A DNA stretch of 42,150 nt from a virus, in the IMG/VR virus record IMGVR_UViG_3300026309_000001, positions 1-42,150 of that record. One strand, given 5' to 3'. Every line of letters begins with the position of its first letter. The first letter of the stretch is position 1. The notes under the pieces were generated by a model. It had not been told where the DNA came from. It made no database searches and saw only the letters and a list, made by a program, of their open reading frames with translations. This document shows, piece by piece, positions 3,974 to 41,955 of the stretch. The translations under genes were made by a program, and so were the position numbers.

Positions 3974-4683
3974 GACACGCCTCCGAGGCGTTGCAGCTCG
4001 GCGGCGTTGAGGGCCTCGGCCGAATTGTCGGTGTCGGCCGGGCTCTCCTGAGCCGGGCGCGCCGTGCCTCGGACATGCGGCGCCGCCGGCTTGGTGACGG
4101 CAGGGGCCGGCGCGGGTTTTGCTGCAGCCTGCGCCGGCCGGCGGCCGAAGAACTCCGAAACCGACTGCAAAATATGCGTGAAAATATTCCTGGCGGCTGG
4201 CGTAGCCGGTGCCGGAGCTGCCTGCGGGCGCGGCGCGGCATCGCCCAGATACATGCGGCGCTCTTCGTTGCGCCGGCGCAGGAGGCCTGGGATCACCGCG
4301 AGCTGGCCGTCAACATGGCCCTTGTCCCACAGCAGGAAGGCGGCCGCGGCACCGGGATAATCCTTCGCGCGATGCTTTTTCAGGACGGAGCTGCCTTTGA
4401 AGGCGCCGACCCCGATGTTGAAGGCGAGCGAGACCATCGCCGAGAACTGCTCTTCGGTCGTCGGCACGTCCTGCGTCACCGCATCGACCGCGCGCTCGAA
4501 CCGGGCGATGTCGTGCCTCAGCAGATCCTCGGCATCGGCCTCGGTGATCTTCTGCCCCGGCCGCGCCGGAGTGTGGCCGTAGCCGATCGTCCATACTGAA
4601 GCGACGTCCTGATAGGCAGCGAGACGCAGGCCCTCGTCTTTTTTGACGAGCGCCAGCCCCGCGTCGCTGATGCGGCGCGTCAT
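3970..4683 (-). CDS. Endolysin, T4-lysozyme family (GH24) with Pro/Ala-rich tail
   Basis: 237 residues. Residues 1-150 match GH24 muramidases. Catalytic E17, D26 and T32 have exactly the T4 lysozyme spacing (DEGLRLAAYQD...WTIGYGHT). It would cleave the glycan backbone of peptidoglycan at lysis. No signal or SAR segment is present at the N-terminus, so a holin is needed for release. The last about 85 residues are low-complexity Ala/Pro-rich, an unusual extension for GH24 endolysins. GGAGAG before the ATG at 4683 is a good ribosome site. The stop overlaps the lipoprotein start. Confidence 0.92.
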   Translation of the reverse strand: MTRRISDAGLALVKKDEGLRLAAYQDVASVWTIGYGHTPARPGQKITEADAEDLLRHDIARFERAVDAVTQDVPTTEEQFSAMVSLAFNIGVGAFKGSSVLKKHRAKDYPGAAAAFLLWDKGHVDGQLAVIPGLLRRRNEERRMYLGDAAPRPQAAPAPATPAARNIFTHILQSVSEFFGRRPAQAAAKPAPAPAVTKPAAPHVRGTARPAQESPADTDNSAEALNAAELQRLGGVS

Positions 4684-4706
4684 GCAATTCTCTCCGGTTG
4701 TGGGGC

Positions 4707-4907
4707 TTAGTGGCTCGCGGCGACGTGGCCGGTCAGCGCGGCGATGACGATCGTGACGATCCAGCGCGCGGCGTCGGCGACCCGATGCTTTACCAGGTCG
4801 CCTCCGGTCTTCTCGGCGACATGCGTCTCGATCGCGCGGGTGCGCGCGTCGATGCTTTCGAGCCGGGTATCGATGCTCTCGATGAGCATCTGCAATTCGG
4901 GGCTCAT
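4707..4907 (-). CDS. XhlA-like lysis membrane protein (holin candidate)
   Basis: 66 residues. An N-terminal coiled coil (residues 1-35, SIDTRLESIDARTRAIETHV) is followed by a single C-terminal membrane helix (about 47-62). This is the architecture of XhlA/haemolysin-type lysis proteins. It overlaps the tail-fibre stop as ATGA and directly precedes the endolysin. Together these make it the best holin or holin-partner candidate. Confidence 0.65.
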   Translation of the reverse strand: MSPELQMLIESIDTRLESIDARTRAIETHVAEKTGGDLVKHRVADAARWIVTIVIAALTGHVAASH

Positions 4908-6610: not shown

Positions 6611-6625
6611 GGGGCGGTTCTCTCG

Positions 6626-6652
6626 AAAAGAAAAGCCCCGCCGGGGCGGGGC
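6626..6652 (-). terminator. Terminator-like hairpin in the tail-fibre leader
   Basis: On the - strand, GCCCCG pairs with CGGGGC around a 6-base loop and is followed by CTTTTCTTTT, 16 bases before the fibre ATG. The same stem-plus-CTTTTCTTTT arrangement occurs before the genes at 13490 and 19466. It may act as a partial terminator that sets gene dosage in the late operon, or one read through by an antitermination mechanism. Confidence 0.6.
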
Positions 6653-6696
6653 AGTGGGGTAGAGTGGGGCGGTTAGTGAGTTACAGGGTGAACCAG

Positions 6697-6891
6697 ATGA
6701 TCTGGGCGGATCGAGTGCCGCTGGTGTTTGCGGGCTTTTGCGCGATCGTGGTGGTGCTCAACGTGGACCCACCACGCGCCGCCAACACGTCGGCGATCCT
6801 GGTGGTGTTCCTTTGGCTGGTGTGCCGCGCCCTAGACTTTCTCGGCACCGGCCGAATCAGAAGCAGCGGTCGCAATCCTCCGCCCTACTAG
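6697..6891 (+). CDS. Small membrane protein on the opposite strand
   Basis: 64 residues from ATG at 6697; GTG at 6688 is possible. Two hydrophobic segments (about 7-22 and 34-52), a basic end, and GC-rich third positions support coding. It lies between two leftward late genes and converges with the gene ending at 6888 (4-base overlap). No family recognised. An independently expressed membrane protein is possible. Confidence 0.5.
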   Translation: MIWADRVPLVFAGFCAIVVVLNVDPPRAANTSAILVVFLWLVCRALDFLGTGRIRSSGRNPPPY

Positions 6892-8216
6892 GCCCCAGGA
6901 AGCAGGCCGCCTCCTTGAGGCATCGCGGGGGGCAGAGATCCGTTCCGCATATAGTCGAGAAGGCCCGGCAGCAGGGCGCGAGTAACGACGCCGGAGTGCG
7001 TCAGCGGCGGCAGAGCGTACTGCGTTGCGGCGGCAAGCGGCGATCGCATTCTCATCATCTCGTCAACCGGGTTTAGCGCGCGCTGGGCTAGAGATCCCTC
7101 TAGTGACTTCGCGGCGCCGCCTGCGATCAGAGGAACAGCGGCTCCGACGCCTGCCCCTTCGGGTCCGAAGTGGCTGCCCAGCACCGACCCCAGAACGCTG
7201 AACATGCCGCCGTGCATGCCCTGGCCTCCACCTAGGAGGTTGCCGAACCGACGCGCGGCATTCTGGACGGGGCCGCCCATGTCCACGCGGTTCAATCCGG
7301 CGAGTTCGGCGTCGCTTAGGCCGGCAACGTTTCCCGGTTGTTCGAGAAAGCTCGCGACCCGCTGCCGGATGCTGTTGCCTACGTTTTGCCCCGAGTTGCT
7401 GGCGGCAGCGCGCGCTTGGGCGCGATCAAGGATCCCGGTGTTTGCCCTGTCGAGCGAGCCGGTGAGAGCATTAGAGCGCTGGGCGGCGGCGTAATTGCCG
7501 TTCGCGTCGGCAAAGGTCCGAGCAGCCGCGGCGGCATCTTCAGCCGAGCCGGACAGAAGATCGCTTGAAGAAAGCCCAGACAGAAACTGGTCAATGCCCT
7601 GCTTGGCGCGAGTAGCCGCCAGCATGTCGGTCTTGTCGCCCGAGACGCTGCCAAAGGTTCGCCGGAGGGCTTGCATATTGGCAGGCGTGATGACATCGGC
7701 TGCAGCGGCGTCGTTGATGCCCTTGTTGATGCCGGCAAAGGTCTTGGGCGCAAGCTCGGCAATGATGCCATCGTTTTCCAGGCCTTGCTTGACGCCGTTG
7801 ATCGCGCTGCCGACAGAGGAAGGGCTGATCTCGATGCCCGAGTTTCTAAAGGCATCGTAGCCAGCTACGCCGGCGTTCTTCAAGTCCGCAGCTCCAGGCA
7901 CTCGCGACCCGAACTCGACCGGCGAAGCGATGCTCGCGAAGTTATAGGCGCGGGAATTCAGCGTTGGATCTGTCCGGCCGTTCGCGCCGACGACCGGCTG
8001 CTGCCCACTAACCACATCGCTCGGAAGTTTCACCGCATTGATGATGCTGCCCAGAACGCCAGCGGTCGGATCGAAGGAGGCCTTGCCCTGAGCGTCAGTG
8101 GAGAATGGCAAGATGCTGCCATGGTAGGCGGGCTGATCGAATTGGTCGAAATAATTCGATGGCGCCGATGGCTGGGGAGCGGGTGGCGCGTCATATTGGT
8201 CGAAGTAGTTCGCCAT
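6888..8216 (-). CDS. Putative internal virion (ejection) protein
   Basis: 442 residues, Ala/Gly/Ser-rich. The N-terminus has two copies of an (A/S)NYFDQ(Y/F)D motif (residues 2-9 and 20-27), often seen at the start of phage internal proteins. The rest is mostly helical with Gly-rich membrane-active-looking stretches near 330-370. It is the third of a run of large low-complexity structural genes between the gp10-like protein and the fibre, where podoviruses encode ejection proteins. Exact role inferred from position only. Confidence 0.6.
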   Translation of the reverse strand: MANYFDQYDAPPAPQPSAPSNYFDQFDQPAYHGSILPFSTDAQGKASFDPTAGVLGSIINAVKLPSDVVSGQQPVVGANGRTDPTLNSRAYNFASIASPVEFGSRVPGAADLKNAGVAGYDAFRNSGIEISPSSVGSAINGVKQGLENDGIIAELAPKTFAGINKGINDAAAADVITPANMQALRRTFGSVSGDKTDMLAATRAKQGIDQFLSGLSSSDLLSGSAEDAAAAARTFADANGNYAAAQRSNALTGSLDRANTGILDRAQARAAASNSGQNVGNSIRQRVASFLEQPGNVAGLSDAELAGLNRVDMGGPVQNAARRFGNLLGGGQGMHGGMFSVLGSVLGSHFGPEGAGVGAAVPLIAGGAAKSLEGSLAQRALNPVDEMMRMRSPLAAATQYALPPLTHSGVVTRALLPGLLDYMRNGSLPPAMPQGGGLLPGA

Positions 8217-10865
8217 TTACTTTCCTAGCACCTTGGCCGCGGTGCCTGGGCCGTATTTGGCCTCGAATTGATCGCGGAGCATCGGGTTCATCTGGAGGGC
8301 CTTGACAGCGCCACTGGGCGGCGGCGGCGAGCCAGGGCCGCCGAGCATTCCCCTGAGCGGGCCGATGTCCCTCTCGGCTTGATCGCGGGCCTTGTCGAGC
8401 GGGTTGAGCGCGCTCCAGGCCGTCTCAAAGGATTGCGGGTTACGCCAGCCCTGCTGCTGCGCGACGTTCCAATCCGCTGGGAGTTGCTGCGCCTGCCGGA
8501 CGAGCGCCAGGTCCTCTGACAGCATCTTCAGGTTGGCCGCGGGCTGGATGTTCGGATGCTCGCGGTTTTCGCTGACCGAAAGGAACTCGATCTGCGATGG
8601 GCGAGGAGTGGCTGCCTTCAACAGTGGCAGCGTAGTCAGCATGTTGTCGTGCAGAGCTTCCTGCACCGCCGCCGGGTTGGTGGACATCACCAGCCCCGGG
8701 TCCATACCCAGAGCCTTGAGCGTCGCCGCCAGCTCGGCCTTGTGGGTTTCAAAGGCGCCGGACTCGGTCATCTTGAAAGCGTTGGCGATCGTGCTGAGCC
8801 GCATCTCGGCTTGCCGCGCCGGGGCGATGGCTTCCGTCCACTTTTCGGTCTGCGCGTGCCACTTAGGCAGAGCCTCCTGGATCTCGGCCGGGCTCTGCGG
8901 CATGAACTGCTGGCTTATCGGCGGCAGCATCGTGCCCTGAGGCGTCGGTATCGCCTGGACTTTGCTCGTCGGCGCTTCGGCGGGGTTGGGGGCGCCCTGG
9001 TTGAAGCCGGGCATGCCGCCATACTCAGCCTCGTAGCCGCCAGATTTCTGTGCGCGGCTTGCCGATTGAATGGCCGGGATGGCTCCAGGCACTTCCTGGG
9101 CCACTGGCCCTTGCGGCGTGTTGACCAGCGACGTTCCTTCCGGCAGCCGCGGGCTTTGCGCCTGCAGCTCGTATTTCCCGGTTGCTGGGTTCATCGCCCA
9201 GAGCGAGCCGCCCTGCCGCATAATCTGCGGCTCCAGCCGCTTATTGCGCAGCTGCAGATCGGCCTGGTTCGTCTGCTTGCCAATCTCGTAAGGGTATTGC
9301 GCCCCGGCCGTCGCGGCCGCCTTCGGCCCGACGAAGGGCAGCCCCGCAGCTTCGTCGAGGAAGCCGGGGGTCTTGATGCCGAGCAGCGCGTAGGCTTTCG
9401 AGAGGTTCTGCTGGCGCTGCGCATAAGCAAGCTGCGCCGGCGTGAGCGCCGCGCTGGGGACCGCGGGCATCTGCGCCGGCGCAGCTCCCTGCTGCTGGGC
9501 AGCAGGTTGGGGTTGAGTGACGGGCGGAATGCCGCTCGGCGGGGGTGCGGCGCCGGCTCCGGGGATCAGCCCCGGCGGCATCGCTGCGGGAGGCGGAGGC
9601 GGCGCGTTTGTGCCGTTCGCGATCTGCGGCATCGGGGTTGCGCCGGGCGAGGGTTGGCCGCCGGAGGACTGGCCGTTCTGCGCGACGAAATCTTGGATGG
9701 TGCCCTTGAAGCCGCTATCGAGGGCGCGGCCGTAGGCCTGAGACAGCGTGAGCCGCGCCTGGTACTGCGCCGGATCGACTGCGGAGGGAGCAACATCGCC
9801 GCTCGCCGTGGTCGGCAGATATTGCCGGCCAGGGGGAAGGTTGAGGCCGCTTCCGCGAGCCAGAACCGACGCCGGATCAGGCGGCATGGCGGAGCCGCTC
9901 GAGTCGCCGGCTGGCAGCATCGGGATCGAGGTCGGTGCGCCGTTCTGCGCCAGACGGATCGGCGGCTGCGGTGCCTGGAGGCCGTTTACCGGCCCGGTGT
10001 CGAAGCTGGGCGCGCTGGCGCCCCCGGCCAGCGCCGGCCCCTGACCTTGCGGCGGCGCAAACTTGCCGATGCCGGCAAACCCGGTGATGCCGAGCCGCTT
10101 CGCGCCGTTCCATGGCCCCCAGCCGCCTTCTGCGGCCTTTCGCAGCGCGAAATCGATGGTCGCGCGCTCATTCTTCGGATCGAGCGGATTGAGGCCGGTT
10201 TCCTTCTGAAACTCATTGCCGAGGCCGCCGCCGGTGTAGAGTTGGAAGGCGCCCCCCGACTTTCCGTGATCGCCCAAGAAGGTGCCGAGGCCCTCGCTGC
10301 CGGCGACCGCCGTCGCGACATTGGGGTCGATCCCGTACTTCGTCGCGGTGAGGCGGATGTACGGCACCAACCCGCGCGGGTCGTCGCCTTGGCCCGGCTG
10401 CGACAGATCGGGCGCGCCGCTCGGGGCGCCGGCGGTTTGTCCGCCGCCCTGGCCGCCCGCTTCCGGCGGAGGGGCGCCGCCGCTGGCCCCGAAGGCTGCG
10501 CTCATGCCATCGTCGCCGCCGCTGGCGCCCATCAGCTGCTGCAGGAGCCCGAGCTTCTGCTTCAGCATCTGCTTGTTGAGCAGGAACTCCTGCGCCTTCA
10601 GCCCGACATTGGCGGACTGGTCCTGCGCGTCCTGCGCGCCGGCCGCGGCGCCGGCCAGCCCGGCGGCAAACCCGCCCGGCACCTTCCCGCTGATGAAGGG
10701 CACCGTGTAGTCGAGCGCCCCCGATTTGAGGAGGCCGGCCATGGCGCCGCCGAGCGAGCGCTGGCGGATCGCCGCCATCTGCTCGGGCAGGAGCGCGCCG
10801 GCATAGAGATCGGGCGCGGCGCCGCTGTTGCCGCCGCCGCCGCTGAGAAAATCGAGGAGGCCCAT
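8217..10865 (-). CDS. Internal virion protein with lytic-transglycosylase-like domain
   Basis: 882 residues. The start at 10865 is fixed by a TGATG overlap with the upstream gene. Residues 47-77 (SGALDYTVPFISG...AAGLAG) form a motif repeated in the exported protein at 36268. Residues about 165-265 look like a virion peptidoglycan hydrolase: KYGIDPNVATAVAGSEGL with probable catalytic E191, then GGAFQLYTGGGLG and DFALRKAAEGGWGPW. The middle is Pro/Gly/Gln-rich, and the C-terminal 350 residues are helical. It probably enters the periplasm with the DNA and opens the wall locally, as T7 gp16 does. Confidence 0.75.
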   Translation of the reverse strand: MGLLDFLSGGGGNSGAAPDLYAGALLPEQMAAIRQRSLGGAMAGLLKSGALDYTVPFISGKVPGGFAAGLAGAAAGAQDAQDQSANVGLKAQEFLLNKQMLKQKLGLLQQLMGASGGDDGMSAAFGASGGAPPPEAGGQGGGQTAGAPSGAPDLSQPGQGDDPRGLVPYIRLTATKYGIDPNVATAVAGSEGLGTFLGDHGKSGGAFQLYTGGGLGNEFQKETGLNPLDPKNERATIDFALRKAAEGGWGPWNGAKRLGITGFAGIGKFAPPQGQGPALAGGASAPSFDTGPVNGLQAPQPPIRLAQNGAPTSIPMLPAGDSSGSAMPPDPASVLARGSGLNLPPGRQYLPTTASGDVAPSAVDPAQYQARLTLSQAYGRALDSGFKGTIQDFVAQNGQSSGGQPSPGATPMPQIANGTNAPPPPPAAMPPGLIPGAGAAPPPSGIPPVTQPQPAAQQQGAAPAQMPAVPSAALTPAQLAYAQRQQNLSKAYALLGIKTPGFLDEAAGLPFVGPKAAATAGAQYPYEIGKQTNQADLQLRNKRLEPQIMRQGGSLWAMNPATGKYELQAQSPRLPEGTSLVNTPQGPVAQEVPGAIPAIQSASRAQKSGGYEAEYGGMPGFNQGAPNPAEAPTSKVQAIPTPQGTMLPPISQQFMPQSPAEIQEALPKWHAQTEKWTEAIAPARQAEMRLSTIANAFKMTESGAFETHKAELAATLKALGMDPGLVMSTNPAAVQEALHDNMLTTLPLLKAATPRPSQIEFLSVSENREHPNIQPAANLKMLSEDLALVRQAQQLPADWNVAQQQGWRNPQSFETAWSALNPLDKARDQAERDIGPLRGMLGGPGSPPPPSGAVKALQMNPMLRDQFEAKYGPGTAAKVLGK

Positions 10866-11269
10866 CAACCGTACAGTGAGAGGAGGGAGGGATCGGTCAT
10901 CGCCGCCAGCGGGCTGGCTTGCGCCTGCTGCGGCTGCTGCGGCATCGCCGGGAGGCCGAGCTTCTGGCGCAGCTGCGCGAGGAGCGCGAAGGGCGGGACG
11001 CGCGGCTGGATCGGCGGCGCGAAATTCGGCGCCTCTACCGGCTGGCCGCCCATGGCGGGAGGCTGCGGCGCGGGATGGATCTGCGGCACCGAGAAACCGT
11101 TCTGGCCGAGCCCCAAGGGGTTGCCGCCGACGCTGTAGCCGCCGCCGCCGCCGAAGAGCTGCTGCAATCGCTTGAAGATGTCGGGTTGCTGCTGTGCGCC
11201 TGGCTGCGCGGTCGCGGCCGGGGCGCCCCCGTAGATGTTGCTGTCGAGCCCGTCGAGGATGCCGGCCAT
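10865..11269 (-). CDS. Pro/Gln-rich structural-region protein
   Basis: 134 residues from ATG at 11269, which shares an A with the upstream stop (TGATG). The N-terminus is MAGILDGLDSNIYGG; the rest is Pro, Gln and Gly-rich with a helical QQPDIFKRLQQLFGG stretch and LLAQLRQKLGLPAMPQ near the end. The composition matches the flanking internal virion proteins, and an ejection or assembly accessory role is likely. Family not recognised. Confidence 0.6.
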   Translation of the reverse strand: MAGILDGLDSNIYGGAPAATAQPGAQQQPDIFKRLQQLFGGGGGYSVGGNPLGLGQNGFSVPQIHPAPQPPAMGGQPVEAPNFAPPIQPRVPPFALLAQLRQKLGLPAMPQQPQQAQASPLAAMTDPSLLSLYG

Positions 11270-11499
11270 CAGGAAAGCCAATCGTCAATAAAGGGAAGCT
11301 GCACGGTCTTGCCGTTGCCGAGGTCGCCCGGGTCGCCCCGATAGACCCGCAGCCGCGCGAGGCGGGTCGAGTGCGCCGCGGCGGCCAGCACCTTCTCGAC
11401 GCAGTGCATGCTGGCGCAGCGGATCGTCTGGTTCGCGTCGCGCGCGCGCTCGGGGCTGCCGACCGCGAACAGCAAGAGGATCACGAAGGCGGTGTGCAT
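11269..11499 (-). CDS. Small exported or membrane-anchored protein in the virion gene block
   Basis: 76 residues. The start overlaps the previous stop as TAATG and the stop overlaps the next start as TGATG, so it is certainly translated with its neighbours. The N-terminal 16 residues (MHTAFVILLLFAVGSP) form a signal or anchor segment, followed by two cysteines (C28, C33) and a charged domain. Function unknown. A predicted exported protein between internal virion proteins is odd. Confidence 0.6.
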   Translation of the reverse strand: MHTAFVILLLFAVGSPERARDANQTIRCASMHCVEKVLAAAAHSTRLARLRVYRGDPGDLGNGKTVQLPFIDDWLS

Positions 11500-13490
11500 T
11501 AGAAGCCGAGGAAGGGCAGGAAGTCGGCGAGGATGCTGCCGCCGGCCGAGGCTGCAGCCCCCGCGCCAAACTCGGGCGCCAAGGTAGCGGAAGCGAGTTC
11601 TGCTGCTGTTGGCGTACCGAAAGAGGCGAAACTCGGCAGGCTCGCGTCGAAGCCCAAGCCGCCGCCTCCGATCAGGCCGGCACCGCCGCCGCCGCCGAAG
11701 AGCCCGAGGTTGTTGCCGAGGCTGCCGAGGCTGCCGAGCGTGCCGAGCGCGGAGGATGCCGCGTTCGGCCCGAGGACCGGCGTCGTTGTCGACGAGCTGC
11801 CGGTCTGCGGGTTGCCGATCAGGTTCATGTATTGGGAAGCGGTTTGCCACGGAGCCTGGATGTTGCCGTAGAAGCGGTTCTGCTGGTCGTTGATCTGCTG
11901 CTGCGCGAGCCCGGTGAGGCCCTGGCCGCCCGCGGTCATCTGCTGCGCCGGGGCATAGTTCTGAGACATGACCTGCGGCTCCATGCCGAGGCCGATCAGC
12001 GAATTGCGGTTGCCCGTGTCGTAGCCGCTCTGCAGCGTCGACAGCGCGCTGTTCGCCAGGCCGCCCGCCTGGCCGTAAGCCTGGCGGGCGAGCGAGAGGC
12101 CGTTGTTGTAGGCGTTCTCGCGGTCCTGCACCGCCTGTAGCCGCGAGCTGAAGTCGCCGAGCCGCAGGTTGCCGGCTGAGTTCTCCAGATTGCCGGCGTT
12201 GGCGATGCCGGCCTGGTACTGGCTGCCGGCTTGATTCAGGAGCTGCCCGGTTTGCCCCCGCTCGTTCTGCAGGATGTTGGCGGCGGCCCCGGCGCCGGTG
12301 ATGCCTTCGCCAAGCCCGGTCAGGTACTGGTTGCCGGCTTGGTTGAGCGCGCCGGTGCGGGCGCCGAACTCGCCGAGCCCGAGGCTTCCGAGGGCGGAGC
12401 CGGCCGATTGCTCGAGCTGGTTGCCCTGGTTGATGAGGGAGCCCAGCGTCCCCTGGGCGCTCGTCATCAGCCCCCGCTCGTTGGCGTAATCCTGGCCGTA
12501 GAGGTTCGCCCCCATGTCGCCGAGGGTCTTGCCGAGATCCTGCTGGTTGATGTCGCGGTTGTTCTGGACGAAGCCGGAGCCGTAGCGGCCGGAGGCTTCC
12601 GCCGTGCTGTCGGCCTGTGGCGCGGTCGCGGTCTGGTAGGCGTTGACGACCGGCCGGGCCGCGGCGCCGAACTCGGCGTCGATGTAAGGGTTTTTGCCGA
12701 GGAAGGCGCCGCTGGCCTCGGCGCCGAGAGTGCGGGTCGCGAGGTTCGGCTGGGCCGCCGTGGCGCCGGCATGGCCGAGAAGGCCATAGCCGGCCCCGAG
12801 CCCGTTGATGGGCCCCCCGGCCATCCCCGCGAGCTCCCCGGCATAAGGGTTGGCCGCTGCTTGCGCGCCATAGCCTGCCGCGGTGCCCGCGTAGGGGGTA
12901 GCGCCCGACCCGTTGTAAGCGAGCGTGCTGAGCCCGTTGCTGTATTGCCGGCCGGCGGCCGTCGCTTCGCCGCTCAGGTTTCCGAGCGCATCGACTTGGT
13001 TGCCGACGCCGGTGCCCTGGTTGAGCAGCGAGCCGAACTCATTGGAGTATTCGCTGCCGGCGTCGATCTCCCGCTGCCCAAGAGCATTGAGCGTCGCGGT
13101 GCTGCCGCCGGTTTGGCCGCCGATCGCGGTCAGCGGGTTGAAGGCCGGGCTGTTGATGCCCGACATGCCGCCGCCGGTAGCGCTGCCGAAGAGCGAATTG
13201 GCCTGGCCGGCGATGCCGAGGCCGGTGCCGTACTGGTTGATCTGGCCCTGGAAGCCGCCGCCGATCGCCGGGTTGAAGTCGGCGAGGGTTTGGCCGGGGT
13301 AGTACTGGAGGGGGTCGTGCTGGTTGAGGTCGAGCGCCGCATTGAATCCGGCGGGGCGCGGATTGTCGCCGAAGCCGGCAGTGCCGGCTGCCTCCCCCGT
13401 CAGGAACGGGAGCTGCGCTTGCTGTGTGGGGTTTTGGGTCGTCTGCGTGATATTGCCGGACGAACTCGGACCTTTCCCGCCTCCCGGCAT
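11499..13490 (-). CDS. Large Gly/Gln/Asn-rich internal virion protein
   Basis: 663 residues. After a Gln/Thr-rich start come a long helical region and a conserved-looking block near 270-350 (GKNPYIDAEFGAAARPVVNA...GSGFVQNNRDINQQDLGKTLGDMGANLYGQDYANER) that I recall from podovirus-type internal or DNA-transfer proteins. The C-terminus is Gly/Leu-rich and hydrophobic and may insert in membranes. It is the largest of three consecutive ejection-type genes. An AGGAG ribosome site directly follows a terminator-like hairpin in its leader. Confidence 0.65.
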   Translation of the reverse strand: MPGGGKGPSSSGNITQTTQNPTQQAQLPFLTGEAAGTAGFGDNPRPAGFNAALDLNQHDPLQYYPGQTLADFNPAIGGGFQGQINQYGTGLGIAGQANSLFGSATGGGMSGINSPAFNPLTAIGGQTGGSTATLNALGQREIDAGSEYSNEFGSLLNQGTGVGNQVDALGNLSGEATAAGRQYSNGLSTLAYNGSGATPYAGTAAGYGAQAAANPYAGELAGMAGGPINGLGAGYGLLGHAGATAAQPNLATRTLGAEASGAFLGKNPYIDAEFGAAARPVVNAYQTATAPQADSTAEASGRYGSGFVQNNRDINQQDLGKTLGDMGANLYGQDYANERGLMTSAQGTLGSLINQGNQLEQSAGSALGSLGLGEFGARTGALNQAGNQYLTGLGEGITGAGAAANILQNERGQTGQLLNQAGSQYQAGIANAGNLENSAGNLRLGDFSSRLQAVQDRENAYNNGLSLARQAYGQAGGLANSALSTLQSGYDTGNRNSLIGLGMEPQVMSQNYAPAQQMTAGGQGLTGLAQQQINDQQNRFYGNIQAPWQTASQYMNLIGNPQTGSSSTTTPVLGPNAASSALGTLGSLGSLGNNLGLFGGGGGAGLIGGGGLGFDASLPSFASFGTPTAAELASATLAPEFGAGAAASAGGSILADFLPFLGF

Positions 13491-13506
13491 GGTTGGGGGT
13501 GCTCCT

Positions 13507-13533
13507 AAAAGAAAAGGCCGCCCGGAGGCGGCC
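13507..13533 (-). terminator. Terminator-like hairpin in the leader of the 13490 gene
   Basis: On the - strand, GGCCGCC pairs with GGCGGCC around a 4-base loop and is followed by CTTTTCTTTT, ending right before the AGGAG ribosome site. It is the second of three elements with the same design. Confidence 0.65.
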
Positions 13534-13624
13534 TATGTGAATGGGATGGGTCGTCAGTTACGGCTTCGGCCGGCGCTTGCGTCTGCGCTGATTGCGGTTC
13601 TGCTCGCTCGGCGTCGCCGCGTGA

Positions 13625-14050
13625 CTACAGAGCCCGCACCATGATCTCGCTGGCGATGCTCTGGGCGACGCCGCGCGCCTTCCAGAAGCGCGACCAGCCG
13701 GGGCGGCCATAGGCGGTGATCTTGGCGCAGCCGGCTTGCCGGGCCAGCGCGTCCATCGCGTCGACGAAGAGCGGCCACCATTCGGCGAGCCGGCGTCCGG
13801 CGACGAAGTCGATGGTCCAGAAGCGGCGGCGCGGAAAGACGTTGACCCGGCCGGTGGCGACGGCGACGAGCTGCGCGCCGTCCTCGATCGTGAAGATCGC
13901 GACCTGGCCGTTCAAAGACTGCTGAAGCACGTCGATCGGCTCGTAGCAGCCTTCGGTGCGGTCGGTGGCGCGCTTCAGGACGGGCGCGATCTCGCCCCAC
14001 CGCGCCGACAATTCGTCTCGCGTGGGCCGGCGGATCCGCAACTCAGCCAA
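13625..14050 (-). CDS. GNAT-like small protein
   Basis: 141 residues from TTG at 14050, chosen because TTGGCTGA overlaps the upstream stop as at other junctions here. The layout is GNAT-like: an early helix, then QVAIFTIEDGAQLVAVATGRVNVFPRRRFWTIDFVAG strands and a final ITAYGRPGWSRFWKARG region like the end of acetyltransferase folds. Such proteins are common next to head-completion genes in podovirus-type phages; the substrate is unknown and it may not be an active enzyme. Downstream (13558-13624) is a short - strand open stretch with coding-like composition but no clear start. Confidence 0.6.
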   Translation of the reverse strand: MAELRIRRPTRDELSARWGEIAPVLKRATDRTEGCYEPIDVLQQSLNGQVAIFTIEDGAQLVAVATGRVNVFPRRRFWTIDFVAGRRLAEWWPLFVDAMDALARQAGCAKITAYGRPGWSRFWKARGVAQSIASEIMVRAL

Positions 14051-14396
14051 TGACCGCAAACCCGAATGTCTGCGTCGTCGAGGCGTTCGAGGGATGGTTG
14101 ATCGTGGCGCTGCCCCTCGTCGGCACGACGTAGATGCCGGGCGAGGTCAGGACCGCGATCGCGGCGGCCGCGGTCTGCGGCACCAGGATGACGGCGCTGT
14201 TGGGGCCGATGCGGCTGTCGGTCAGGGTTGTTGACGTGGCGCTCGCGGTGAGGGTGACGGAGCCGGTGGCGTTCAGCTTCCCGGCCAGCACCAGGTTCAA
14301 GACGCGGGCGATGCGAGTGAGCCAACTCGCCCATTCCGATTGCAGCACCGTCTCGGGTACGGGGCCGATGCCGATCGCCGGGATGTTGGCGCTCAT
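14043..14396 (-). CDS. Small beta-rich structural-region protein
   Basis: 117 residues. The ATGA overlap with the gp10-like gene fixes the start. A short helical N-terminus ([20 protein letters not shown]) leads to Thr/Ser/Ala-rich strands ending GFAVIG. This fits a small oligomeric virion protein attached through its N-terminus, such as a tail or vertex accessory. Family not recognised. Confidence 0.6.
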
Positions 14397-16192
14397 CGCA
14401 CAAACCGGCCTTCCGGCTTCATCGTCGCCTGCACGCCTTGCAGGTGCGTGAAGTTGGATCCCGCCGGCAATGTCAGCTGAAACCGCACATAGGCGCCGGT
14501 CGCGTGCATCGGGCACTCGCCGAGGATGTTGACCGGCACCGCGGCATCGTAGGTCACGCTGTCGAAGATCCGGTCGCGATGGCCGAAACTGACCGAGGGC
14601 GAGCCGCCATCGACGATCGGCCGCGCCGAGAGGATCTTCGTGCGCCGGCCCGGAAGGGGCTGCATTTCGCTGGTCTCGACCACCGGCGCCATCGGCGGGC
14701 CGTTCAGGAAATTGAGCTTATGGTTCTGGTCGAAGGCGGCGAGGACCGGCAGGCCGCCGGCATAGAAGCCGCTGTCGAGCGCGGCCGGCAGCGTGTCGAT
14801 CGCGCCGAACGCATTGAGGGCGTCGAGCGTCATCCCCGGCGCCAGCGCGACGGTGCCCCACTCCGCCGGCGTTGCGGTCAAATCGCACAAGGACCAGCGC
14901 TGGACGATGGGGTTGTAAAGCACGAGCCGGTCGTAGAGCCCGGTGCCCGCGCCCGAGGCGCTGGCATAGAGCCAATAGACGATCGGCAGGTTGGGGATGG
15001 TGCCGCCTTGCACGGTCGAGACGTAGCTCGAATTGAGGTCGGCGATGACCGTCCGCGCGATCTTCTGCGTCCCGATCGGGAAGCTCGCCATGCCGTTGAA
15101 GGCATAGAAATCGTCGTCGCCCAGGTAATAGCCGACCGCCTGGCTGCCATAGGCGCCCTGCATGCGGCGCAGCACGATCGACAAGGGCGCCTGCGTCCCG
15201 GCCGCGCCCTCGGCGACCTGGAAAGAGAAGATGCCGCCGGAGCTGCCGACATACTGCACGCGGTAGATGCCGCGCTCGCACCAGATCGCGGCGTCGGCCG
15301 CCGAGAGATGGCCGCCAATCCCGCCGGTGATCTGCCCGAGGTCGGACTGCTCCAAATCCTGGTAGTCGGACTGCACCTGGATCGCGGCGTTCGTGCCCGG
15401 GGTCGGCCAGGAGAGCGGGTTGCCGATCGCGCACCACCAGGCTCGCCGCGGCTGCGCGCCGAAGGTGCCGTCGCTGGTGTTGAGCGCCATCACGAAATCC
15501 TTGACCGTGATGACGAAGCGCGCTTTGGGCGCCGCGCTCGCTAGATCGGAGAAGACGCTGTCGCTGCCGACGAGGAAGGTCTGCTGCGGGTCGCTGTAGT
15601 TGGTGGCGATGATCCGCGTGCCGAAGCTGGTGAAATGCCAATAGCCGACGGTGGGGATCACCGGATTGAGGGGCGAGGGCGTGGCGTAGGGGCCGCCGCC
15701 CTGGCTGGTCATCGCTTCGCTGGCGACCGTCTGCGAATTGTTGACCGTGTAGGTGCCGGTGCCGCCCGTGCCGGTGCCGAGCGCGGTGATCGTGGTCGCG
15801 GCGGTGACGCCCGAGCCGGAGAGGGTGTCGCCGACGTTGATCGTTCCGGCGGAGATCGCCGAGACAGTGAGGGTGGTCGTCGCGATCGACCCGGTGAAGC
15901 TCGCTTTCCGCGAAATGTCGCTGAAATTGGGCGCCGAGCCCGCGCTCATCTGATAGAGCCGCTTTGCGTCGCCCGCGAAGACGTGCACCGCCTCGCCGTC
16001 GTCGAGAAAGCCGTAGGCCCCTTGGCATCGGGCGGTGAGCGGCCCCGAATAGATTTGCGGGGTCGGCATCGGCCCATAGGACTGCGCCGTGACGGGGATC
16101 ACGTTCTTGATCGTCTTCGCGCCCGGATTATTAAAATTGGGCTGGTCGGGCAGCCATTCTCCAAACGGCATGAACTCGGGAGGCGAGGCCAT
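14393..16192 (-). CDS. Packaged-DNA stabilisation protein, P22 gp10-like, with inserted domain
   Basis: 599 residues. The overall pattern is that of P22 gp10-type tail proteins: an N-terminal segment, then repeated beta-propeller-like strands with motifs such as [35 protein letters not shown] and [14 protein letters not shown]. It would close the tail channel after packaging. Residues about 98-163 ([17 protein letters not shown]...[11 protein letters not shown]) are a Thr/Gly-rich beta domain of a type that recurs in unrelated phage tail proteins and looks inserted. The first 15 codons lie in a 75-bp block duplicated at 23237-23311. Confidence 0.8.
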
Positions 16193-16220
16193 CTCAGGGG
16201 TTGCCGGTATCGGTGCGTAC
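16146..16220. repeat. 75-bp inverted duplication, copy A
   Basis: The reverse complement of this segment is identical over 75 bases to 23237-23311. It holds the last codons of the adaptor gene (VRTDTGNP, stop) and the first codons of the gp10-like gene, so this is the native copy. The two copies face each other across about 7 kb that contain the capsid and appendage genes. Confidence 0.95.
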
Positions 16221-16826
16221 GGTCAGGGTGCCGCCGGTCCAGCGCTGCTTCAGGTCCGCCATCATGATGCGGTTGAAGATCGACTCGCGCAGCTGCACCC
16301 AGCCGGGCACGCGCTCGTCATTGCCGATGAAGGCCTCGCCCCACAGCATCGACCCGGCGAGATACAGCGAGGGGTAGTTCAAGAGGAGCCAGTTGGTCGG
16401 GTTCGCGTTGCTGAGCGAAGAGATCCCGGCGTTGTAGTCGAGGGCGATCGAATAGACCGCATCCGGGGTCGGCGCGAAGGTGAAGCTCGTACCCTTGACC
16501 GTGAAGAACTCGGGGGCGCCCGTCGCGCCGTCGACCCAGGTACCGTCCATCACTTCCGGGGTGATGTATTTGATGAAGACCGTGGGCGAGGTTTGCAGGA
16601 CCATCTCGCGATGACCCTCATAGAGCGCCGGCAGCGCTATCGTGGCGAGGTCGGCCGTCGTGGTCAGCGTGGTGCTGGTCTCGCCGAGCCTTGTGCGCAG
16701 GCGGTCGCGCGCCTCCTCCTCGAACAGCGCGATCAGGTCGGCCGGCTGGACTTGCGTATCGCCGGGGCGGGCCATCCAGGCGAGGATCGTGGTTTGGAGG
16801 TCGGCGTAGGTGCTGAAGGATGCCAT
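16194..16826 (-). CDS. Head-tail adaptor protein, SU10 adaptor type
   Basis: 210 residues. The opening [18 protein letters not shown] followed by an acidic helix ([17 protein letters not shown]) and later [20 protein letters not shown] and [19 protein letters not shown] are the pattern I associate with phage SU10-type adaptor or connector proteins, which bind under the portal. Position next to the gp10-like protein agrees. The final eight codons fall in the duplicated 75-bp block. The stop lies just before the next gene's ATG. Confidence 0.75.
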
Positions 16827-17545: not shown

Positions 17546-18634
17546 TCAATAAGCGAAGCAAGAAATCCGCAGCTTGTCGCTGGCCGCCCAGGCCGCCGCT
17601 GCGCCGGAGGTGTTGAAATTTCCGAATGTGGCCGTGGTCGTTGTTGACGCGGTTTGTTTGGTCAGGAACACGGTCGCCGAATTGGTGGTGATGTCCGTCG
17701 CCGCGCAGTTCCATCCGGTCGTGGCCGCCGGCAGGCCGATTACGCCGCTGGTTGCCGTGCCGCCGGTGCCGACGTTCACCTCGAAAGTGATCGTGCCGTT
17801 ACTTGCGGTGATGCTCGGGCTGGTGCCGAACCCGGAGGAGATCGTGGGCGCGGCCGGCGATACGGCGGCCTTGCCGTTTACCTGAAGCGTGCCCTTGACG
17901 TTGAGCGACCCAGCGGCCGTGCAGCTTGTGTCGTCCTGGCAGAAGAACTCGTTAGCCGACGAGCTGTTTTTAACGACAAAGGAAAACGTGCCGCTGGTCG
18001 CGCCGCTGCCCTGCACGAATAGCGGAAAGCCCTGATCGGTAAGCGTCCCGATGTTGATGTGGCCGTTCGTGCCGATGTAAGCGTTCGCGTCCGCATTGCG
18101 CAGAAACAGATTGGCGGTTGGCTGAGTGCCGCCGCCGGTCATCGCCTCGTTGTTTATGCAAGCGTAGGTATTTACCGCGCCACCGCTCGCGTTGGCCTGC
18201 GTAAGCTGGCACTTTGCGCCGTAGAGCCGGGTCGCGGTCCCACCGGAATTGTTCTGCGGGATGAGAAGCGCGCCGTCCCACTCGGTCACTGTGCCCGAGT
18301 TCTGCAGCTTGGCCTCGAAGGATTCGGCCTGCGCGGCTAGGGCGCCACTCTCGACAGTAAGATTGCCGTGGAAGTGGTTTATCTCGCCATTGGCATGGCC
18401 CGGCCCGGTCAGATCGACGAATACGTTGAAGGGTTCGAAAATGTTCGCCGTGTCGCTGCTGGGCGACAGCGTGATGTTCAAAAGGTTGAGGCGGGTCGCG
18501 GCGCCGGTCGTGGCGAGGTTGAAGGTGGACGCGACCTGTGTCGGGCCCCCCTGCGACTTGATCTCCGCCGAGGCGAGCGCCGGCGCAAAGGCCAGCGCTG
18601 CCGCGAGGGCGGCCGAGAGAAGGCGGCGACGCAT
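17546..18634 (-). CDS. Fibre-like beta-rich protein with signal peptide
   Basis: 362 residues from ATG at 18634, four bases after the previous stop. Residues 1-23 form a Sec signal (MRRRLLSAALAAALAFAPALASA before EIK). The remainder is Thr/Ser/Gly/Asn-rich beta sequence with segments such as NAYIGTNGHINIGTLTDQG and GSLNVKGTLQVNGK, typical of phage fibre shafts. Several cysteines occur (for example CQDDTSC), suggesting disulphides in an oxidising compartment. No S74 domain is present, unlike the second fibre at 4904-6610. Likely an appendage or adhesin. Confidence 0.65.
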   Translation of the reverse strand: MRRRLLSAALAAALAFAPALASAEIKSQGGPTQVASTFNLATTGAATRLNLLNITLSPSSDTANIFEPFNVFVDLTGPGHANGEINHFHGNLTVESGALAAQAESFEAKLQNSGTVTEWDGALLIPQNNSGGTATRLYGAKCQLTQANASGGAVNTYACINNEAMTGGGTQPTANLFLRNADANAYIGTNGHINIGTLTDQGFPLFVQGSGATSGTFSFVVKNSSSANEFFCQDDTSCTAAGSLNVKGTLQVNGKAAVSPAAPTISSGFGTSPSITASNGTITFEVNVGTGGTATSGVIGLPAATTGWNCAATDITTNSATVFLTKQTASTTTTATFGNFNTSGAAAAWAASDKLRISCFAY

Positions 18635-18638
18635 CTGC

Positions 18639-18968
18639 CTACAGCCCCTCGCCCGGCGTGAAGTAGAGCTGCGCCGTGCCCGAGGCGGTGATCGCCGCGA
18701 CGAACTCGTAGGGGGCGGAGAAGATCTCGACGGCGCCGGCGGAGATCGGCATGCTGCCGGCCGCGCCGCCATTCACGGGAAGCGTCGCCGCGACCGTGTT
18801 GTCGATGCCGAAAGCGATGAAGGCGTCGACAGCGCCGGCGTTGCGCACCCGCACATGCCGGCTGGCCTGGCCCGCCTGCACCTGCACGTTTGCCGTGGTC
18901 GTTGCGGCGTTGAGGGCGACCGTCGATGCCGGGTTCGGCTTGAAGGCCGGCTGGCTGATGTTGTTCAT
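18639..18968 (-). CDS. Small beta-rich head or fibre decoration protein
   Basis: 109 residues, almost entirely Ala/Thr/Val/Asn strands (TANVQVQAGQASRHVRVRNAG, VDAFIAFGIDN, AAGSMPISAGAVEIF). This jelly-roll-like pattern is common in small virion decoration proteins encoded near the capsid gene. No family named. It precedes the fibre-like gene by four bases. Confidence 0.55.
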   Translation of the reverse strand: MNNISQPAFKPNPASTVALNAATTTANVQVQAGQASRHVRVRNAGAVDAFIAFGIDNTVAATLPVNGGAAGSMPISAGAVEIFSAPYEFVAAITASGTAQLYFTPGEGL

Positions 18969-19546: not shown

Positions 19547-20002
19547 CTAGGGTACGTGTCGCCAGGAACGGCGGAGGCGAATCCCGGAGATGACGCTCGG
19601 CACGACACCGAACGCGCGGCCCAGCTGAGCGCAATTAAGCGGGCTGGAGCGAATGATCTCCACGTCTCGCTCGGTCAGCTTTGACCTTCCGTGACGTGAT
19701 CCCACTGTGCCGGTGCGGGAGTTGGCGCGCTGTTCCGATCGGGTTGCCCATCGGACGTTTCCAGGCTCATAGCCCTTGTTGTTGTCGTCGCGCTCCAGCG
19801 TGTAGCTTCGGTCCGGGGGCTCGCCCATGTCCGCAAGGAAGTTGGCGAAGTCGAGCCAGGCCTCACAGACTTTGATGCCGCGGCCACCGTAGCGTTCATA
19901 GTGCGCCTGGTTCGGATTGAAGCATCGCTGCTTCATCGCGTTCCATCGACCATACAGCCAGTGGTGCTTGCCGCCGGGGCGGCAGTAGCCGTGCCTTTTC
20001 AT
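19547..20002 (-). CDS. HNH homing-type endonuclease with C-terminal HTH
   Basis: 151 residues. Residues 13-95 have the plan of small HNH homing nucleases: HHWLYGRWNAMKQRCFNP, YGGRGIKVCEAWLDFANFL, DRSYTLERDDNNKGYEPGNVRW, then SEQRAN. The C-terminal RSKLTERDVEIIRSSPLNCAQLGRAFGVVPSVISGIRL is a helix-turn-helix module used for DNA recognition. It sits between the major capsid gene and a head gene, a common insertion place for selfish nucleases. Its ribosome site lies in a hairpin stem. Confidence 0.85.
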   Translation of the reverse strand: MKRHGYCRPGGKHHWLYGRWNAMKQRCFNPNQAHYERYGGRGIKVCEAWLDFANFLADMGEPPDRSYTLERDDNNKGYEPGNVRWATRSEQRANSRTGTVGSRHGRSKLTERDVEIIRSSPLNCAQLGRAFGVVPSVISGIRLRRSWRHVP

Positions 20003-23053: not shown

Positions 23054-23263
23054 ATGAACACCTGTCAAGTTTGCGGGGCGGCGTTAGCCTTCGGCCTCTG
23101 CTGGCGCTGCGCTCTAGGAGGACGCGATGGAACTTGGAGAGCCTCTGCGACGCGGCACGGTGGTGCCAACCCGTCATCCGGTGCGGGCGCCGGAGCCTCA
23201 GCGGGAGACGATTCCATCATCGCCGCGGCCTATGCAGTACGCACCGATACCGGCAACCCCTGA
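23054..23263 (+). CDS. Short zinc-ribbon-like open frame fused to a duplicated gene end
   Basis: 69 residues. The start MNTCQVCGAALAFGLCWRC has two CxxC pairs. Further on the sequence is low-complexity. The last eight residues (VRTDTGNP) and stop come from the 75-bp duplicate of the adaptor gene end. A second frame with a stronger ribosome site (23127) overlaps it, so the real gene may be shorter or absent. Confidence 0.35.
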   Translation: MNTCQVCGAALAFGLCWRCALGGRDGTWRASATRHGGANPSSGAGAGASAGDDSIIAAAYAVRTDTGNP

Positions 23264-23357
23264 GATGGCCTCGCCTCCCGAGTTCATGCCGTTTGGAGAA
23301 TGGCTGCCCGAGCCGACTTCGCCCGAGCCCAGCAAAACGCCCGAGCAGGTGGATTAG
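23127..23357 (+). CDS. Short Pro-rich protein carrying the duplicated gp10-like N-terminus
   Basis: 76 residues. AGGAGG lies five bases before the ATG, a near-perfect ribosome site. The product is Pro/Arg-rich, and residues 48-62 ([14 protein letters not shown]) are copied from the start of the gp10-like protein through the 75-bp duplication. It is part of a + strand island inside the leftward late operon. No known function. Confidence 0.45.
   Translation: MELGEPLRRGTVVPTRHPVRAPEPQRETIPSSPRPMQYAPIPATPEMASPPEFMPFGEWLPEPTSPEPSKTPEQVD
23237..23311. repeat. 75-bp inverted duplication, copy B
   Basis: Identical to the reverse complement of 16146-16220. It lies in a + strand island between the portal gene and the 22719 gene, where it has no native role, so this is the derived copy. 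Confidence 0.95.
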
Positions 23358-35773: not shown

Positions 35774-35802
35774 ACTCTGCCTTTTGCAGATTTTCCCGTC
35801 AA
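35774..35802 (-). promoter_or_regulatory. Leftward early promoter
   Basis: On the - strand TTGACG (35802-35797), 17-base spacer, CAGAGT (35779-35774). The dyad at 35777-35789 overlaps its -10 and the dyad at 35812-35824 lies just upstream of its -35. Confidence 0.55.
35777..35789. promoter_or_regulatory. Repressor operator candidate 1
   Basis: CTGCCTTTTGCAG, one of four 13-bp dyads of form CTGC-N5-GCAG. It covers the -10 region of the leftward early promoter. Confidence 0.65.
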
Positions 35803-35811
35803 GCCCCTTCG

Positions 35812-35824
35812 CTGCAACATGCAG
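35812..35824. promoter_or_regulatory. Repressor operator candidate 2
   Basis: CTGCAACATGCAG, 17 bases before the repressor ATG and upstream of the leftward promoter -35. It could mediate both autoregulation and repression of the Cro-like gene. Confidence 0.65.
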
Positions 35825-35840
35825 AACCTTTTTCTCCACA

Positions 35841-36221
35841 ATGACGGCGATGGAGCTTCACGAGCGGCTTAGGCAGGCGCGGCAAAGGAAATTCAAGACG
35901 GCGAAGGCCGCCGCCGACGCGCTGGGGATTCCATACGGCACCCTGACAGGCCACGAGGCCGGCACCCGCGGCGTCAAGTCGAAGGAGTTGAGCCGGTACG
36001 CCCGAGCCTACGGCGTCGAGCTTGCTTGGCTAGCACACGAGATCGGCCCCGAAACGAAAGGCCGGGGCGCTGGCCCGACTACCCGCGAAGAGCGCTTAAT
36101 CTTGGAAGCGTACAGAAGGTTGCCGGAAGAAGAAGCGACCGCGCATCTTCAGCTATTGCTCGCGCGCACCGGCGCCGATCTGACCGATGACCAGGAGCCC
36201 TCAAAAAAGGGGCAGATGTAA
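35841..36221 (+). CDS. XRE-family phage repressor
   Basis: 126 residues from ATG at 35841; ATG at 35850 is possible. Residues 5-60 are an XRE helix-turn-helix (LHERLRQARQRKFKTAKAAADALGIPYGTLTGHEAGTRGV, then ELSRYARAYGVELAWLAHE). No LexA-type peptidase domain is present, so induction must work differently from lambda CI. It sits between two promoters carrying matching dyads and should maintain lysogeny. Confidence 0.8.
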   Translation: MTAMELHERLRQARQRKFKTAKAAADALGIPYGTLTGHEAGTRGVKSKELSRYARAYGVELAWLAHEIGPETKGRGAGPTTREERLILEAYRRLPEEEATAHLQLLLARTGADLTDDQEPSKKGQM

Positions 36222-36267
36222 TTCAATTTCGATTGATATCCAAAGAATGAAACGGGTCCGGAGCGTT

Positions 36268-36612
36268 ATGCACAAGCCAATCCTCCTATTCGCCGCTCTG
36301 GCGCTAGCCGCCGCACCGGCCGCCGCGCAACTCGCGCCGCAATACGGGACAACCCCGCAGTCGCAAGCCGCCTTCCGGGCCTACATCCAGCAGCGAGACC
36401 AACTCGAGGAAATCCAGCGGGAGATCGCGCGAACGCAAGCGCAGATCCGCGCCCTCGAAGCACAACAGAACAGCAGCGCGCGAGGCTCCGATTGTTTCGC
36501 GCGCGGAATGGCCGGATCGGGCGCGCTCGGCTACACCGCGCCGTTTCTGTCGGGGCAGATGCCCTCCGGGCTCGCGGCGGGGCTGGCGGGCGGGGTAGCC
36601 GGCTGCAACTGA
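36268..36612 (+). CDS. Exported protein sharing a motif with the virion hydrolase protein; superinfection-exclusion candidate
   Basis: 114 residues from ATG at 36268; ATG at 36247 is an alternative. Residues 1-20 are a Sec signal (MHKPILLFAALALAAAPAAA before QLAP). A coiled coil (about 40-67) follows. The C-terminus (83-113, SGALGYTAPFLSGQMPSGLAAGLAG) is identical at 20 of 31 positions to residues 47-77 of the internal virion protein at 8217-10865. Cys at 76 and 113 could form a disulphide. Lying just downstream of the repressor in the same direction, it is probably expressed in the lysogen. Confidence 0.7.
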   Translation: MHKPILLFAALALAAAPAAAQLAPQYGTTPQSQAAFRAYIQQRDQLEEIQREIARTQAQIRALEAQQNSSARGSDCFARGMAGSGALGYTAPFLSGQMPSGLAAGLAGGVAGCN

Positions 36613-36734
36613 GCTGAAAGGCGGATCGTCCCCACAAAGCTGACGCCGCCAAAGCGACCCTCTATCGGGATCTCGCCGCCACTGCTCGCGTCTACCAGGG
36701 CGTCGAGGATCGCCCAGCTATCTCCGTCTGCCAT
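36531..36734 (-). CDS. Small leftward protein overlapping the exported-protein gene
   Basis: 67 residues. AGGAGG five bases before the ATG at 36734 is an excellent ribosome site. MADGDSWAILDALVDASSGGEIPIEGRFGGVSFVGTIRLSAQ is coding-like; the tail, which overlaps the exported-protein gene by 82 bases, is Pro-rich. Function unknown. Confidence 0.45.
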   Translation of the reverse strand: MADGDSWAILDALVDASSGGEIPIEGRFGGVSFVGTIRLSAQLQPATPPASPAASPEGICPDRNGAV

Positions 36735-36779
36735 CGCCACCTCCTGATCGCGACCGCAGCATAGCGCCTCGGAAAAAAT

Positions 36780-36792
36780 CTGCAAATTGCAG
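36780..36792. promoter_or_regulatory. Repressor operator candidate 3
   Basis: CTGCAAATTGCAG, a perfect dyad directly abutting the -35 (TTGACA) of the rightward early promoter. Confidence 0.7.
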
Positions 36793-36820
36793 TTGACACG
36801 GTCTCTGCATTTTGCAGAAT
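36793..36820 (+). promoter_or_regulatory. Rightward early promoter
   Basis: TTGACA (36793-36798), 16-base spacer, CAGAAT (36815-36820), leading to the gene at 36847. Operators 3 and 4 flank and overlap it, so the repressor would block polymerase binding. Confidence 0.65.
36805..36817. promoter_or_regulatory. Repressor operator candidate 4
   Basis: CTGCATTTTGCAG lies between the -35 and -10 of the rightward early promoter, sharing bases with the -10. Confidence 0.7.
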
Positions 36821-40916: not shown

Positions 40917-41170
40917 TGCCGGGGATCTTTGTCCGCGTGCTCCGCGCCGAACAAATCCCGCCACGGCCGCGGCAGCCCGAAGACGGCCTCCCCTGGGGCG
41001 TTCATCCGGTCCTCGACCTGATGAAGATGGTCCTGCTGATCGCGGACACGCAGCGCGACATGGCCCGGCTGGTGACCAAGCGTGACCGGCTGATTTCTAT
41101 TATGGCGATCCTTTGGTGTGTGACCGCGGTCGGCCTTGTGCTGACCGAGACGCTTCGATGGCTGCGCTGA
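40916..41170 (+). CDS. Small protein with C-terminal membrane helix
   Basis: 84 residues from ATG at 40916 (TGATG overlap). Pro-rich soluble part, an amphipathic helix (LDLMKMVLLIADTQRDMARL), then a membrane segment (about 62-80, LISIMAILWCVTAVGLVL). Function unknown. Confidence 0.55.
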   Translation: MPGIFVRVLRAEQIPPRPRQPEDGLPWGVHPVLDLMKMVLLIADTQRDMARLVTKRDRLISIMAILWCVTAVGLVLTETLRWLR

Positions 41171-41955
41171 TGCCGACCTGCAACGCCCAGGGATGCGAGA
41201 AACGCGCCCGTCAGGTGGGCCTCTGTCCAATGCATTACGCCCGCGCTCGCCGACAAGCCAACAAGGCCGCAAATCGGAACTGCACTCTCGGCGGATGTAG
41301 CGAGCCCGTTCACGCGAAAGGGCTTTGCTGGCCGCACTATGCTCGGCTGCGGCGCTATGGTGACCCTCAACGGCGCCCCATCAATCGGCGGGCTAAGCCG
41401 CCGGAAGAACGGTTCTGGGCAAGAGTTCGAAAAGGGGTTGGGTGCTGGGAAATCCCTGGACCCGCCGAGGACTATCCGCAGGTTCACCTAAGCCGAGATG
41501 CCGCCGGTCGCCGCCGCGTGACGCAGGCGCACCGCTTTGTGTGGCAGATGCTGAACGGCGAGATCCCGGCCGGAATGTATATTTGCCATCACTGTGACAA
41601 TCGACGGTGCGTGCGCCCAGATCACCTCTTCCTCGGCACACCGAAAGACAACGTGGCCGACATGGAGGCTAAGGGGCGGGCTCGACGAGTCGGCGCGCAG
41701 GGGGAAAATCACCCCGGGGCAAAACTGACTATCGCACAGGTCGAAGATATTCGGCGACGGTACGCCGAGGGCGCGGCCAGCTACGAGAAACTCGCTGCTG
41801 AGTTCGGTGTCACGGGAGCCGCAATCAGCCTGATCGTGCGGGGGCGCAACTGGCCGAGTCACAACCAGGCGGCCCAACACCGCAAGCAGAACGCGCACCG
41901 GACTCGGCGGGCGAAGAAGGCGAGCGGGGATTTGCTGGAGGACGCGGGCTCGTGA
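41170..41955 (+). CDS. HNH endonuclease with N-terminal zinc fingers and C-terminal HTH
   Basis: 261 residues from ATG at 41170 (TGATG overlap); ATG at 41158 adds four. Two finger-like units (CNAQGCEKRARQVGLCPMHY and CSEPVHAKGLCWPHY) are followed by an HNH_3-type nuclease (AHRFVWQMLNGEIPAGMYICHHCDNRRCVRPDHLFLGTPKDN). Then a C-terminal repeat-like module (GENHPGAKLTIAQVEDIRRRYAEG, LAAEFGVTGAAISLIVRG) acts as an HTH. The same C-terminal plan is seen in the HNH at 19547. Likely a free-standing homing nuclease. Confidence 0.88.
   Translation: MPTCNAQGCEKRARQVGLCPMHYARARRQANKAANRNCTLGGCSEPVHAKGLCWPHYARLRRYGDPQRRPINRRAKPPEERFWARVRKGVGCWEIPGPAEDYPQVHLSRDAAGRRRVTQAHRFVWQMLNGEIPAGMYICHHCDNRRCVRPDHLFLGTPKDNVADMEAKGRARRVGAQGENHPGAKLTIAQVEDIRRRYAEGAASYEKLAAEFGVTGAAISLIVRGRNWPSHNQAAQHRKQNAHRTRRAKKASGDLLEDAGS

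Follow-up and report, generated by a model that had tools for sequence, protein, structure and literature searches.

The window, meaning the whole stretch of DNA that was analysed, is an IMG/VR record of 42,150 bases, and the dataset is this one phage. The first 127 bases are identical to the last 127 bases, and given this direct terminal repeat the genome is very probably complete. Judged by its gene content, which includes an integrase, an HTH repressor, the recombination proteins YqaJ and RecT and a portal of the SU10 type, the window is a temperate tailed phage. Its proteins have weak relatives that point to an alphaproteobacterial host, in which a periplasm would be present. The features are collected in Table 1. 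When proteins of the genome were compared with one another, the products of 19547-20002 (-) and 41113-41955 (+) formed the third-best intragenomic pair; both look HNH-type or phage DNA-binding, and they are perhaps duplicated homing-type genes.

Table 1. Positions of the genes, segments and regulatory sites in the window.
Feature	Position	Strand	Remarks
Integrase	635-1684		
Lysozyme/endolysin-like gene	3970-4923	-	Far from P0001
P0002, presumed internal virion/ejection protein, 882 residues	8217-10865	-	Lysozyme-like stretch, residues about 162-285
Segment DNA, virion copy (P0002 residues 44-76)	10638-10736	-	
First operator-like palindrome pair	35776-35790, 35811-35825		Ahead of the repressor
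Phage repressor (HTH_3; PHROG transcriptional repressor)	35844-36221	+	Directly 5' of P0001
P0001, predicted exported protein, 114 residues	36268-36612	+	Signal-peptide-like 1-21; coiled coil about 30-72; virion-like segment 80-112; Cys76, Cys113
Segment DNA, P0001 residues 80-112	36505-36603	+	
Second operator-like palindrome pair	36779-36793, 36804-36818		Overlaps the promoter-like site
Promoter-like site, TTGACA-16-CAGAAT	36793-36820	+	

The coordinates and translation of P0001, as given by an earlier sequence-only reading of this DNA, were correct. The coding score of 0.31 bits/codon was similar to that of its neighbours (0.26 for the repressor), and GGAG lies shortly 5' of the ATG at 36268. 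The N-terminus looks like a cleavable Sec signal as judged by sequence and hydropathy; the hydropathy over residues 5-23 is 2.06, and AAAQ at residues 18-21 offers a site of the A-x-A type, so that the signal peptide claimed previously is supported as a prediction. An alternative in-frame ATG at 36247 would give the protein a basic n-region (KRVR). The mature N-terminus carries no lipobox cysteine, the only cysteines of P0001 being Cys76 and Cys113. AlphaFold2 without alignments predicted a confident helix only at about residues 31-70, the coiled coil. Sec-signal-like N-termini, which are unusual among virion proteins, were also seen in two late-operon genes, 4904-6610 (-) and 17546-18772 (-); the sequences are MRFIDRLAAVLLSLALALPPAVAPAFA and, at an internal ATG, MRRRLLSAALAAALAFAPALASA.

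The P0001 gene follows the repressor stop codon at a distance of 46 bases. Palindromes resembling TCTGCANNNTGCAGA with at most one mismatch occur four times in the whole window, all in the immunity region, and the two pairs flank the repressor-P0001 gene pair, delimiting that region. The promoter-like site in the second pair is the sole sigma-70-like promoter in the scanned stretch and is oriented into the recombination operon, leading away from P0001. By their annotated positions, ltp of TP-J34 and sie2009 of Tuc2009 occupy slots behind the repressor comparable to that of P0001. P0001 follows the repressor and has operator-like sites on its other side; the simplest reading is that P0001 and the repressor would be expressed together in the lysogen, as for ltp and sie2009. 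The earlier observation that P0001 sits beside the repressor and the virion gene in the late operon is borne out, and a lysogenic gene position is supported. Searches for relatives of the immunity region yielded nothing useful except a distant repressor in record L103, from which a P0001 counterpart is absent. An ORF of 67 residues (36531-36734, -) with a strong Shine-Dalgarno sequence, AGGAGGT, runs antisense over the 3' end of P0001 and most of the virion-like segment. Leftward reading of this ORF could start from the operator region (about 36780-36820), and its coding score is positive but weak; its expression could turn P0001 off upon induction.

P0002 is located among the late structural genes. 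In tblastn it matched Sulfitobacter phiGT1 (E 5e-14) and Sinorhizobium phiM5 (E 2e-4); the matches were confined to about residues 169-266, and both are annotated as internal virion/injection proteins. The lysozyme-like stretch is related to 'internal virion protein' and 'tail tape measure' domains of alphaproteobacterial phages and also resembles proteins on uncultivated virus contigs. Homology of P0002 to the annotated internal virion proteins of alphaproteobacterial phages was found in the enzymatic stretch only. P0002 had been called a peptidoglycan hydrolase, a reasonable inference that is unproven; no Pfam model, SLT included, matched the protein.

Smith-Waterman alignment of the two proteins matched P0001 residues 80-112 with P0002 residues 44-76, with 21 of 33 positions identical and no gaps (GMAGSGALGYTAPFLSGQMPSGLAAGLAGGVAG and GLLKSGALDYTVPFISGKVPGGFAAGLAGAAAG, respectively). 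In the 31-residue frame described originally (P0001 83-113 against 47-77 of the virion protein), the reported 20 identities were confirmed. The alignment score was 112, compared with a mean of 43 to 47 when P0001 was shuffled. Three kinds of shuffle were used, 3000 of each, including one within 10-residue windows that preserves local composition; no shuffle attained 112, and the Gumbel p was about 2e-7 to 2e-6. With the local-composition shuffles p was about 1e-6, or about 1e-3 allowing for the 465 pairs that can be formed among 31 selected genes, of which P0001 and P0002 were the top pair by a wide margin. The best-conserved half of the segment, SGALxYTxPFxSGxxP, is the less compositionally biased one and holds the strongest identity, while the second half is Gly/Ala-rich with small-residue spacing (GLAAGLAGGVAG and GFAAGLAGAAAG) and moderately hydrophobic. 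A common origin of the two segments is supported by the sequence comparison. AlphaFold2 rendered the segment as a low-confidence short helix in both proteins. The two cysteines of P0001 flank the copied segment and P0002 has none, which makes a disulfide-closed loop plausible.

The DNA of the two segments is 68% identical in the 31-residue frame, and the same codon is used at 11 of the 20 shared residues and a different one at 9. This level of DNA identity and the differing codons indicate that the copies diverged long ago; the copy appears to be an old one, separated within the phage lineage or in an unsampled source. A recent internal duplication was ruled out, the DNA being just 68% identical. 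Over 33 codons pS was 0.47 and pN 0.26, and pN was below pS in 95% of bootstraps, a borderline result. Neutral simulation to equal DNA identity left a mean of 14 to 15 identical residues, and 21 of 33 was reached in 2 of 2000 runs, whichever copy was taken as the start. As the amino-acid identity exceeds the neutral expectation, the data suggest that the protein sequence of the segment is maintained by selection, judged on a short stretch.

A 12-residue core of the segment was scanned as degenerate DNA against IMG/VR and against the genomes of 84,980 bacterial and archaeal species, one for each. There were no matches in the 84,980 genomes, and the sole match in IMG/VR was a 12.7-kb contig that is 100% identical to window positions 3509-16240. 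A relaxed core pattern recovered this contig again along with two unrelated chance matches. A relative with a change at any fixed position would escape exact degenerate scans, and distant homologues may exist. The concern that the segment might be a common low-complexity motif was put to rest, within these public collections, by the scans, with which the local-composition shuffles agree. The idea that the virion segment belongs to an N-terminal motif widespread among podovirus internal proteins was also considered and dropped: a consensus of that motif matched no PHROG and gave no phage in tblastn, and at 80 loci whose major capsid proteins are related no counterpart of the virion segment was seen. 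No relatives were found for the N-terminal 116 residues of P0002. P0001 had no tblastn relative among 50,697 phage records and no PADLOC match, and Pfam, NCBIfam and PHROGs returned only weak scores at the level of coiled coils. As a separate observation, a 75-bp end stretch (window about 16146-16220) of the identical contig, L003, has a second perfect match at 23237-23311, which is either an exact intraphage repeat or an assembly effect.

The favoured explanation is that P0001 is a periplasmic decoy that would poison the DNA-entry conduit of incoming relatives and so bring about superinfection exclusion, a reading that is held tentatively and is given clearly less than an even chance. It draws on a segment match that greatly exceeds chance and was confined to this phage in the scanned collections, on the apparent selection on the segment, on the kinship of P0002 to internal virion/injection proteins, on the slot behind the repressor comparable to those of ltp and sie2009, and on the placement of the only two P0001 cysteines around the segment. 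Furthermore, ejection proteins and the tape-measure protein are established targets of SieA and Ltp, respectively. P0001 would be transcribed together with the repressor in the lysogen and exported by the Sec pathway, with cleavage of the signal after AAA or AQ. An oligomer would form through the coiled coil, and in the oxidising periplasm a Cys76-Cys113 bond would turn the segment into a closed loop. As an incoming related phage releases its internal proteins for the DNA channel, the P0001 segment may occupy the usual partner of the virion segment, which may be a host envelope factor or further subunits of ejection proteins; with this partner occupied, channel formation would be stopped. The stricter version, in which the prophage protects its host with a disulfide-closed copy of a segment of its own ejection protein, exported to the periplasm, where it would act as a dominant negative and keep related phages from assembling the channel for DNA entry, is possible but doubtful. 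Against the decoy, Ltp, Sie2009, HK97 gp15 and SieA do not copy their targets, the searches gave no relatives of P0001 or of the P0002 N-terminus, the bootstrap for selection is borderline, and AlphaFold2 gives the segment low confidence in both proteins.

The main rival to the decoy is that the segment is a glycine-rich, membrane- or envelope-associating self-assembly module that has been reused. The virion segment would then serve ejection, while P0001 would be a lysogenic-conversion protein with another job, for example altering the envelope or a receptor, whose segment is a C-terminal anchor that does not compete with incoming virions. The Gly/Ala-rich, moderately hydrophobic second half with its small-residue spacing and the short helix tentatively predicted in both proteins are what such a module might look like, and an export signal joined to a coiled coil is an ordinary build for envelope proteins. 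However, the SGALxYTxPFxSGxxP half is no generic glycine zipper and is absent elsewhere in the scanned collections, and none of Pfam, PHROGs, NCBIfam and PADLOC assigned P0001 to an envelope family. On balance this explanation is possible, though on the unlikely side.

The remaining explanations appear less probable. P0001 could be a lytic-cycle or virion protein, such as a spanin-like protein or an assembly partner of P0002, with the segment as a homotypic assembly interface; a segment in common can indicate self-association, and an export signal followed by a periplasmic coiled coil is superficially like an inner-membrane spanin. The gene, however, is not in the late operon but on the opposite strand; it follows the repressor and precedes a repressible-looking early promoter, the lysozyme/endolysin-like gene is distant, and such a role is improbable. 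Exclusion by the coiled coil or some other part of P0001, with the segment acting as a tag for targeting to the ejection site or for escape from its own phage, would fit the gene slot and the fact that known exclusion proteins work without sequence copying; this account is improbable as well, marginally more so. A chance or convergent likeness of two Gly/Ala-rich stretches is very unlikely. In its favour, one half of the segment has a biased composition and the searches gave no relatives able to prove descent, but the match withstands the local-composition shuffles, also over the 465 pairs, and the strongest identity falls outside the biased half.

If P0001 is a decoy, its visible copy of part of an ejection protein would directly name the interacting surface. 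The mechanism would become testable through residue swaps between the P0001 and P0002 copies. A search rule for further cases would be an exported gene beside a repressor with a segment in common with a late virion gene.

Several prophage proteins are known to prevent DNA entry by other phages, in most cases through an unclear mechanism. Sie2009 of Tuc2009 blocks DNA injection, and HK97 gp15 blocks DNA entry at the tape-measure stage. Sie2009 and P0001 are both encoded by a small gene immediately 3' of the repressor, but Sie2009 acts in a Gram-positive host, where it is a membrane protein, and has no segment in common with the tape measure protein. HK97 gp15 and P0001 are both small, gp15 being expressed from the prophage and P0001 presumably so; gp15, however, is a moron within the tail operon, a predicted inner-membrane protein with no segment in common with its target. 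P0001 shows no homology to the Ltp, Sie2009, HK97 gp15 or SieA families by PADLOC, Pfam, NCBIfam, PHROGs or tblastn. When the same shuffle statistics were applied to these four proteins and their own virion targets, no shared segment was detected (p 0.1 to 0.9), and SieA had none in common with gp7, gp16 or gp20.

In short-tailed phages the ejection proteins precede the DNA and build a conduit, and P22 SieA interferes at this step, its superinfection exclusion targeting the ejection proteins gp16 and gp20 (PMC10883804). SieA and P0001 are both envelope proteins (predicted, for P0001) made by the prophage of a temperate phage in a Gram-negative host, and an ejection-protein target is established for the former and proposed for the latter. 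SieA, however, is an inner-membrane protein with its own promoter, whereas P0001 appears to be periplasmic and carries a copied virion segment. Ltp of TP-J34 is described as an exported lipoprotein whose target is the tape measure protein (PMC3952083). Ltp and P0001 are both short and exported (predicted, for P0001), their genes both follow the repressor in the lysogeny module, and each is proposed to act on a protein that enters before the DNA. Ltp differs in being a lipoprotein of a Gram-positive host with helical repeat domains, P0001 having no lipobox cysteine, and in sharing no sequence with its tape measure protein, whereas P0001 copies a virion segment. No prophage protein that copies its virion target was described in the portions of open-licence full text that were covered, which is weak evidence of absence. 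Exclusion at DNA entry is thus a class already known; within it, mimicry of the target's sequence would be a novelty.
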